A DNA stretch of 23,073 nucleotides from a virus. Within the stretch, counting starts at the first letter, position 1. Every line of letters begins with the position of its first letter. The stretch covers positions 1 through 23,073 of IMG/VR virus record IMGVR_UViG_3300008107_001259; one strand, given 5' to 3'. The notes beneath the pieces were generated by a model, which was not told the DNA's origin, did not search any database, and saw only the letters and a program-made list of their open reading frames with translations. The translations under genes were made by a program, and so were the position numbers. Positions 2,619 through 3,991 of the stretch are shown in pieces.

Positions 2619-3080
2619 ATGATTAAGATTGGAATAGACCCCGGCCTGTCTGGTGCCATCGTCATTATGGAAAGTAACTCTCCGATTGAGTGGCAACGGA
2701 TGCCAACAATGAAGACGGGCTCGGCCAATCGGGTGAACGCGCCAGCTCTGGCTGCCATGATCAAGCCGTATCTGTACCTTGATAAACCACTTCATGCGTA
2801 TGTCGAGCTGGTGAGCAGTATGCCCGGCCAAGGTGTAGCTTCGATGTTCTCATTCGGTCACTCGGCAGGCGTGATCCAAGGTGTGCTCGGTGCGTTTGAG
2901 ATACCTGTGACGATGGTGACGCCCAGTCAATGGAAGAAGCGCGCGGGTCTTACTGGTCAGGACAAGGATGCTTCGAGGACATTGGCCATCCAGATGTGGC
3001 CGTTCTGGCGTGAGCTGGACAAGAAGGGCGCCGGCCAAGCTTATGCTGATGCGGCATTCATTGCACTCTACGGAGATTGA
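2619..3080 (+). CDS. RuvC-like Holliday junction resolvase
   Basis: This 153-residue protein has the RNase H-fold layout of RuvC-type resolvases, metal-dependent nucleases that cut four-way junctions during recombination or before packaging. The first acidic residue is D7 in MIKIGIDPGLSGA, the second is E63 in AYVELV, and the third site is D144 in the C-terminal helix (AYADAAFIALY). SQWKKRAGLTG with a following DKDASR is typical of phage and bacterial RuvC relatives. Length matches the family. The upstream A-rich leader (GAAAGAAAATT) gives only a weak ribosome-binding site. It diverges from the recombination operon and is closed by the terminator at 3135, so it is probably a one-gene transcript. 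Confidence 0.88.
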   Translation: MIKIGIDPGLSGAIVIMESNSPIEWQRMPTMKTGSANRVNAPALAAMIKPYLYLDKPLHAYVELVSSMPGQGVASMFSFGHSAGVIQGVLGAFEIPVTMVTPSQWKKRAGLTGQDKDASRTLAIQMWPFWRELDKKGAGQAYADAAFIALYGD

Positions 3081-3210: not shown

Positions 3211-3216
3211 AGCCGT

Positions 3217-3302
3217 GTTGGTGGAAAGCGGGTTAGCGCCGCTTGTTTTTCCTTTTCGGTTTTTACACAAACACTGCTTCATGTGCCCACCAACTTTTTT
3301 TT
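3217..3302 (+). ncRNA. Structured RNA-like element, copy 1, with terminal T run
   Basis: An 8-base closing stem (GTTGGTGG 3217-3224, CCACCAAC 3287-3294) encloses a 6-base hairpin with the 7-base loop GTTAGCG (3226-3244). A variable T-rich stretch follows, then the block AAACACTGCTTCATGTG (3269-3285). Eight T residues follow the closing stem, so it would also end transcription as an intrinsic terminator. A second element at 3471-3564 repeats the loop region and the 17-base block inside an unrelated closing stem. I know no named RNA family with these blocks. A folded DNA element is the main alternative. Confidence 0.6.
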
Positions 3303-3311
3303 CGTAGGGGC

Positions 3312-3342
3312 TTGACAAACCCAAATCGTTTCAGTTTATAAT
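3312..3342 (+). promoter_or_regulatory. Promoter for the putative small RNA
   Basis: A perfect TTGACA (3312-3317) and a perfect TATAAT (3337-3342) are 19 bases apart. TTTATA at 3335 gives 17-base spacing. It is among the best sigma-70-like sequences in the window and has no protein gene directly downstream. Transcription would begin near 3349. Confidence 0.65.
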
Positions 3343-3348
3343 TCGTTC

Positions 3349-3466
3349 AGCTAGGTGTGAGAACCAATGCGATAGAGCCGTTAATGAAATCCCGACCCCT
3401 TTGGGGTAGCGCGTCAGCCACAAGCTGGGGTGTTCTCTCACCGGGGTTTCATTAACGGCTTTTTTG
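3349..3466 (+). ncRNA. Putative phage small RNA with long closing stem and pseudoknot potential
   Basis: This stretch runs from the promoter to an intrinsic terminator and has no credible reading frame. AGCCGTTAATGAAA (3376-3389) pairs perfectly with 3447-3460. The stem continues inward through one T-G wobble and CCCG/CGGG, about 19 pairs in all, and T residues follow. Inside are two small hairpins, ACCCC-TTT-GGGGT (3395-3407) and CAGC-CACAA-GCTG (3415-3427). A 5' hairpin (GGT/ACC, 3354-3365) presents the loop GTGAGA, which is fully complementary to TCTCAC at 3436-3441 inside the long stem, so a pseudoknot can form. No known family is recognised; an antisense or regulatory RNA is likely. Confidence 0.62.
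3376..3465 (+). terminator. Intrinsic terminator formed by the small RNA's closing stem
   Basis: The long stem (arms 3376-3394 and 3442-3460) is followed by T residues at 3460-3465, then G and four more T residues. It both closes the RNA and should end transcription. The stem is much longer than a terminator needs, which suggests the fold itself matters. Confidence 0.65.
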
Positions 3467-3470
3467 TTTT

Positions 3471-3564
3471 TGAGACTGGGATTGTTTGTCGGGTTAGCGC
3501 CGGCATCTCCTAAACGGACGAAATGTTTTGAAAACACTGCTTCATGTGGTCAGTCCCAGTCTCA
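3471..3564 (+). ncRNA. Structured RNA-like element, copy 2
   Basis: An 11-base perfect closing stem (TGAGACTGGGA 3471-3481, TCCCAGTCTCA 3554-3564) encloses a 6-pair hairpin with the loop GTTAGCG (3487-3505) and the block AAACACTGCTTCATGTG (3532-3548). The block and the 13-base hairpin core match copy 1 exactly, but the closing stem is unrelated in sequence. The hairpin stem here contains one pair (3489/3503) that is T-G on the plus strand and A-C on the minus strand, so plus-strand RNA is favoured. Unlike copy 1, no T run follows. Confidence 0.6.
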
Positions 3565-3823
3565 TCTCTCACACGCAGCCGTCAGAGCGCGTTAGCTAAT
3601 GGCCTGTATGGGCTGAACTCAAGAAACACAGAACCTCGGCGTGACCCGCGCCTCCAAGTAGAGTAATCGAACGGAATAAACAAGGATGTCGAAAGACAAA
3701 TACCCTAGTACGCTGGGAGTTGATCGTTAAGGATGGTGCAAACTGACCTTATCGGGATCTCAGGGGAGGGCGGCTTGGCTGGCCGGTAGCTCACTTAACA
3801 ACTGGGCAAAGCTAGGAGGTAAT
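3565..3823 (+). other. Leader region before the early operon, no gene recognised
   Basis: About 260 bases between structured element 2 and the first early gene. It contains a third TCTCAC (3567-3572) that could also pair with the small RNA's GTGAGA loop. It also has a fragment resembling the hairpin loop (GCGTTAGCT near 3586) and a 14-codon reading frame at 3686. I see no clear promoter, tRNA or terminator. It is most likely the untranslated leader of the rightward early operon. Confidence 0.4.
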
Positions 3824-3991
3824 ATGGAAAATGATACAACAAAGCGTTTCCCACGCACGATGCACGAAGCGTTTAACTGCGATAGTGATCCCATCAGTGG
3901 GCCATATGGTAAGCAGCCGTTCTGGCCGGTGTATGCGATCTTCTTCATTGTGATCATTGCTGGGATCGTTGTGTTCTGGAGTCGCGTATGA
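3824..3991 (+). CDS. Small single-span membrane protein (55 aa)
   Basis: The gene opens the rightward early operon with an excellent ribosome-binding site, AGGAGG, at good spacing. The first 35 residues are polar (MENDTTKRFPRTMHEAFNCD, then SDPISGPYGK). The rest is one strongly hydrophobic helix, about residues 36-53 (FWPVYAIFFIVIIAGIVVFW), ending SRV. The N-terminus is probably in the cytoplasm or periplasm depending on host topology rules; I cannot decide. Its TGA overlaps the next gene's ATG (ATGA). Function is unknown. Small phage membrane proteins can act in superinfection exclusion or host takeover, but nothing specific is visible. Confidence 0.75.
   Translation: MENDTTKRFPRTMHEAFNCDSDPISGPYGKQPFWPVYAIFFIVIIAGIVVFWSRV

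Follow-up and report, generated by a model that had tools for sequence, protein, structure and literature searches.

A locus of 743 bases, bounded by an ORF that ends at 3080 and by a 55-aa ORF at 3824 of the window (the whole analysed stretch of viral DNA, 23,073 nt), harbors a predicted pseudoknotted RNA module, which we call D1. Its anatomy, i.e., the structure on the plus strand, the pseudoknot, the promoter-like boxes, and the U tract, as well as the succession D1-(HK)-D3, is near certain from sequence comparisons. We favor the reading that D1 is the sigma70-driven 5' module of a multi-domain non-coding phage RNA, and we would give this an even chance of being correct. The first-pass annotation had proposed a promoter-driven small RNA with pseudoknot potential. 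The promoter and the fold are indeed kept among homologues, but instead of being a unit of its own, D1 appears to form the 5' part of a non-coding region that extends well beyond it.

Anatomy of the D1 module and its locus

The ORF that ends at 3080 presumably encodes a RuvC-like protein, as judged by eye. Left of the locus the genes run mostly leftward, and right of it they run rightward. The closest match of the terminase among named phages was that of Pelagibacter phage HTVC027P, with an identity of only 57%, and the window is thus far from any named phage. When the whole region was compared with named phages by distant blastn, MW202484 was the sole match beyond chance, and two other D1-D3 loci yielded no match. 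No tRNA or tmRNA gene was found in 21 related loci. The assertion that about 115 bases lack a credible reading frame held: all three plus-strand frames over 3349-3466 contain stops. One frame is open on the minus strand (ORF 3331-3537, 68 aa), but the length differences among homologues are not multiples of three. The features of the locus are compiled in Table 1.

Table 1. Coordinates of the features of the locus in the window
Feature	Position	Strand	Basis and remarks
HK-A, first HK copy	3217-3294	+	repeats, alignment; eight T follow
HK-A P1	3217-3224/3287-3294	+	
HK-A P2	3226-3231/3239-3244	+	loop GUUAGCG 3232-3238
HK-A P3 CAC/GUG	3272-3274/3283-3285	+	loop UGCUUCAU 3275-3282
-35 box TTGACA	3312-3317	+	sequence; promoter kept among D1 homologues
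-10 box TATAAT	3337-3342	+	sequence; 19-nt spacer from -35 box
D1, predicted pseudoknotted RNA module	3350-3464	+	fold z -6.4; 40-sequence alignment; model R2
H1, 5' hairpin GGU/ACC	3354-3365	+	fold and alignment; pseudoknot side is loop GTGAGA 3357-3362
P2 long stem, 5' arm	3376-3394	+	fold, repeat analysis, covariation
D1 inner hairpin ACCCC-UUU-GGGGU	3395-3407	+	fold
PK1, TCTCAC, H1-loop partner directly before P2 3' arm	3436-3441	+	homologue pairing, covariation
P2 long stem, 3' arm	3442-3460	+	fold, repeat analysis, covariation
U tract, terminator-like, after long stem	3460-3465, then GTTTTT	+	sequence
HK-B, second HK copy	3471-3564	+	repeats, model match, fold z -3.95
HK-B P1	3471-3484/3551-3564	+	
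HK-B loop GUUAGCG	3493-3499	+	
HK-B P3	3535-3548	+	
PK2, second TCTCAC, complementary to H1 loop	3567-3572	+	second partner enriched among homologues
D3, downstream non-coding domain	3573-3810	+	comparison with related locus L030

The 122-nt RNA was predicted to fold with an energy of -59.5 kcal/mol (z = -6.4), and no shuffled sequence was as good. The covariance model R2, the alignment of which includes the window itself, matched 3351-3464 with 75.6 bits. The two arms of the long stem P2 comprise 19 nt each and are 95% complementary; they form 18 Watson-Crick pairs and one G.U pair, in agreement with the 19-pair stem and T run of the first-pass annotation. The inner part of D1 varies in length and sequence among homologues. 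The pseudoknot of the window consists of six out of seven pairs between the H1 loop and PK1, with A.C at the seventh position.

The promoter-like pair that had been noted at 3312 and 3337 is present and is retained in homologues. Transcription would start at about 3349-3350, as judged from the boxes. Because of its 19-nt spacer, this promoter was not listed by a promoter scan that was set to 16-18 nt. However, spacers of 18-19 nt are usual for D1, as they occurred in 58 of the 65 D1 promoters with TTGAC. The -10 box was found in 158 of 180 D1 homologues, compared with a background of 14.6%, among the matches listed from a set selected by stem sequence only. The promoter spacer was also inspected for an inverted repeat of the operator type, an idea that was dropped, as the mean arm length was 3.35 versus an expectation of 3.07.

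At its 3' end, D1 has the sequence hallmarks of an intrinsic (Rho-independent) terminator, i.e., a stable GC-closed stem (19 pairs) directly followed by at least five U (six T). The U tract is conserved: among the matches listed, 160 of 185 homologues, which had been picked without regard to the U tract, had, within 24 nt, a window of 8 nt with six or more T. Unlike an intrinsic terminator, D1 has 16-19 pairs, a large inner domain, a pseudoknot to an upstream hairpin, and further non-coding sequence behind it.

Covariation of the pseudoknot among homologues

Relatives of D1 were found first upstream of HK-B, next by stem plus hairpin, and then by two pattern scans that relied on the conserved stem sequence alone (at least 120 stretches each). 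This yielded at least 216 distinct copies in at least 213 loci of uncultured phages, the letters of which differ while the fold stays the same. The parse of the 216 copies demanded a pseudoknot and a T run, and therefore its own counts of these two features are not evidence. In the set selected by stem sequence only, an H1-type loop-to-stem pseudoknot was present in 180 of the 181 copies listed, and it comprised at least 7 bp in 174 of these 181, compared with 0.05% at random places of the same contigs. In an alignment of 40 D1 sequences, 39 form all seven pseudoknot pairs, and the window with its six pairs is the exception; there, the automatic search chose a wrong partner, and the six pairs are those of the pairing noted in the first-pass annotation. 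Since the aligner shifted some rows by three columns at the pseudoknot, its own pairing value of 88.6% is an underestimate.

The paired positions also covary. Within the same alignment, five of the seven pseudoknot pairs were changed on both sides, and at two positions all four Watson-Crick types were seen. For the whole structure, 18 of 28 pairs were changed on both sides, and all three helices covary. The covariation value of D1 was 0.475, versus 0.177 after shuffling and at most 0.12 when the partner was slid by 1-3 columns. Thus, the H1 loop and its downstream partner are shown by covariation to form an H-type pseudoknot, and the GTGAGA/TCTCAC pairing that had been noticed in the window was borne out far beyond chance. 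Homologous phages devoid of both promoter and paired arms, but with other bases preserved, had been named as a refutation. The reverse was observed: both features persist, and it is the bases that change. Although each piece alone could be ordinary, the notion that the promoter is ordinary, the terminator merely over-long, and the loop complementarity a coincidence is refuted by the near-universal, covarying pseudoknot, and we assign it next to no probability.

At least 36 different H1 loop sequences were found among the matches listed, and each is matched by a partner inside the same molecule. This bears on the proposal that the RNA regulates phage or host messages in an antisense manner, by pairing through an exposed H1 loop. 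Its size, promoter, and U tail resemble those of trans-acting sRNAs, and a hairpin loop of 6-7 nt could serve as a seed. However, the loop pairs within its own molecule and its variants are compensated, so that no conserved seed is left; a loop that served to recognise a conserved outside target would not covary with an internal partner. We consider the antisense reading quite improbable, and this suggestion of the first-pass annotation was not sustained.

The helices of D1 contained 76 G.U cells versus 10 A.C cells, which points to an RNA of the plus strand. A DNA-level element, e.g., an origin of replication whose single strands can fold, could account for a single HK/D1 locus per phage contig and for its position near the point of transcription divergence in the window. 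This explanation appears very improbable indeed in view of the promoter at a fixed distance, the U tract, and the excess of G.U over A.C on the transcribed strand of D1.

Two observations concern the distribution of D1. In MW202484 (L001 7890-8271), D1 adjoins D3 without HK, and the existing annotation places a hypothetical protein, UOF77725.1, over this RNA. In 300 genomes of the Curvibacter order, a search that was run without a positive control found no D1.

The HK motif and the downstream domain D3

The repeats at 3229/3490 and 3269/3532 of the window represent two copies of HK, a separate conserved three-stem RNA motif of about 80 nt; these copies are the two elements on either side of D1. 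Model R1 matched HK-A at 3216-3295 with 67.8 bits; the minimum free energy of HK-A alone was not better than that of shuffled sequences, so that covariation is the support for its fold. A search for the 17-mer AAACACTGCTTCATGTG yielded 77 viral stretches, most of them with the same neighborhood. A looser pattern was also scanned, and at least 190 HK copies were parsed, at least 158 of them distinct. In the 158 distinct copies listed, the loop of P2 was GUUAGCG in 153 and that of P3 was UGCUUYAU in 155, although the search patterns in part predetermined both values. Alignment of 73 copies showed pairing in 85% of the cells; 15 of 17 pairs were changed on both sides, and the covariation value was 0.460 versus 0.142 after shuffling.

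All of 25 phage contigs carried one HK locus, which consisted of a single copy or of two copies side by side, and the search of these contigs yielded one additional weak match (E = 0.02). Ten of the 25 had no D1 match, and thus D1 and HK are separable parts. HK is often situated directly behind a -10 box or immediately in front of a start codon (L061, L064, L071). An antiterminator RNA such as put of HK022, which binds RNA polymerase and suppresses termination, was considered for HK; the position behind a -10 box is the one observation that bears on it. An attC site, a hammerhead, boxA, and an anticodon-loop mimic were considered as well, and none of them is put forward here. Distant blastn matches of HK in rIIB of KVP40 and others lie inside genes and were judged to be due to chance.

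HK was also observed in bacterial contigs. In the Curvibacter order it was found in one of 300 genomes, namely the genome that was used as the center. A chromosomal contig of Curvibacter carries an HK copy (L189 3266-3351, minus strand) that is flanked by a gyrA-like ORF and by a divergent ORF of 781 aa, without an obvious phage region around it. Achromobacter dolens contains a tandem pair (L190 3712-3897, minus strand), and in one of the two copies CCC/GGG replaces CAC/GUG in P3, a compensatory change. Contigs of cattle and sheep metagenome-assembled genomes that were assigned to other phyla (L185, L187) are identical around HK to a Vreelandella contig (L186), which is likely due to contamination or misbinning.

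Beyond the U tract, or beyond HK-B, a second partner of the H1 loop is enriched. The mean paired run with the own loop was 4.20, versus 3.48 +/- 0.10 when loops were swapped; the difference amounts to about 7 standard deviations, and none of 300 permutations was as high. For this comparison 36 distinct loops were used and loci were averaged per loop; shared descent was only partly controlled. By locus, a 4-mer match was found in 45% versus 20% with swapped loops, and a 6-mer match in 11% versus 4%. The window has an exact six-base second copy, the TCTCAC that had been pointed out at 3567, and MW202545 has an exact second partner of 9 nt (L440 2479-2487, loop at 2366-2374). Where HK-B is present, it separates the U tract from the second copy, which therefore belongs to the start of D3. 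The second partner is above chance across homologues, but not universal; because it is good in a minority of loci, a switch between partners may not be general.

The order of the unit is D1, U tract, sometimes HK, and then D3. From D1 to the next SD-preceded ORF of at least 60 aa the median distance was 366 nt (quartiles 283 and 492). Several types of D3 exist among D1 loci. One of them is the Rfam family RF02932 (Betaproteobacteria-1 RNA), which follows directly after D1 in L146, L095, and MW202545. At the gathering score of 49.4 bits, L146, L095, L440, and L439 matched RF02932, while neither the window nor L030 did. Bacterial genomes and Acidovorax phage AP1 contain RF02932 but no D1, and hence D1 is not needed for D3. 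The fold energies of several D3 types were not consistently better than those of shuffled sequences, so that the case for a D3 structure rests on RF02932, a single type. Compared with L030, D3 of the window misses the final approximately 120 nt and the next promoter-like pair, at 3808-3823, immediately ahead of the ribosome-binding site that serves the 55-aa ORF; this gap may be a deletion or an assembly joint.

In MW202545 (L440 1745-2612), five tRNA genes and a sub-threshold tRNA-Sec-like match directly precede D1 and RF02932, and this array lies upstream of the D1 promoter. The small ORFs UOF78434.1 and UOF78433.1, which are annotated over the MW202545 RNA, are probably not real genes. Acidovorax phage AP1 (L439 2461-2584), the host of which is named, contains an unannotated RF02932 of 93 bits after a primase gene, without a D1 match. 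One genome of the Curvibacter order has three RF02932 matches, one of them below the cut-off (L431, L437, L438), and in these the conserved part seems to run past the 3' end of the Rfam model (GACGCTGGCTCCG...). A literature search for RF02932 returned nothing.

Between D1 and D3 no promoter was seen by eye, and D3 thus seems to depend on read-through. A rival reading is an attenuator, in which D1 would be a leader terminator that sets transcription of the downstream operon, with D3 and HK as further leader elements. A promoter, a structured leader, a terminator-like hairpin, and genes in the same direction follow one another, and a competing partner strand lies just past the U tract. However, a competing strand behind the U tract cannot block formation of the hairpin in the usual way. 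Furthermore, in L030 a separate TTGACT...TATATT pair is situated between D3 and the first gene, and L013 has a stem and a T run after D3. We therefore regard an attenuator as possible but somewhat unlikely.

Comparison with known RNAs and a possible mode of action

Among the 4,227 families of Rfam 15, no match was found for D1 or HK. With the window and L030 as queries, the gathering score and E-values up to 10 revealed only sub-threshold vertebrate-miRNA-like stems and terminator-like sRNAs, which were taken as chance matches. A literature search for the motif strings also yielded chance matches only, and the Rfam covariance models of ROOL, GOLLD, and OLE did not match D1, HK, or D3 of the window. 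RF02932 covers only 120 nt of D3, and D1 and HK fall outside of it. D1 and HK thus appear as two RNA classes in many uncultured phages, although other surveys of phage RNAs may include them. The absence of D1 and HK from Rfam, and of any matching decoy family, speaks against the suggestion that the RNA serves, through its shape, as a decoy for a host factor of defence or RNA processing. A decoy would be compatible with a phage-borne sequence that changes fast while its fold stays constant and that has no known partner, but on balance we consider it unlikely.

Some known RNAs share single traits with D1. In the Pistol ribozyme, a 5' hairpin loop pairs with a strand of an internal loop; the resemblance is one of topology only, as D1 also uses its 5' loop for pairing, but the partner lies 3', before the closing arm. 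In the packaging RNA of phi29, loop pairings differ from phage to phage, whereas in D1 the pairing is within one molecule and no link to packaging was seen. ROOL and GOLLD are structured phage-encoded RNAs without known function that are often found near tRNA islands (PMC12286853). The tRNA array just upstream of D1 in MW202545 is reminiscent of them; in contrast, the D1 unit is shorter and has a different 5' module.

For D1 as the 5' module of a longer RNA, we propose a model with a short and a long transcript, to which we give about even odds. RNA polymerase with the host sigma70 would start at around 3349, as the boxes suggest. In the nascent RNA, H1 would fold first and the long hairpin thereafter. 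The H1 loop would then pair with the bases that immediately precede the 3' arm, as the covariation shows, and the second stem of this H-type pseudoknot would be the terminator-like hairpin. Given the U tract and the lack of a visible promoter before the next domain, some transcripts would end and others would read on. The former would constitute a stable RNA of roughly 115 nt; the latter would continue via HK-B into D3. In the long form, the second partner strand, located where D3 begins, would become available to the loop, which may swap partners, and for this reason the short and the long RNA could differ in fold. The fast but compensated change of the loop suggests that the RNA works by shape and not by base-pairing with outside targets.

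Each phage may also have a private loop code, with partners in D1 and D3, such that the second pairing occurs between molecules and restricts assembly to RNAs of the same phage. We regard this as a rather unlikely extension; if true, the intermolecular second pairing would lead to a phage-specific RNA particle or scaffold. In phages, RF02932, an RNA family of unknown function, acquires in D1 a 5' partner that carries a promoter. From the covariation, the precise mutations, each with its compensation, can be read off with which direct functional tests are possible.
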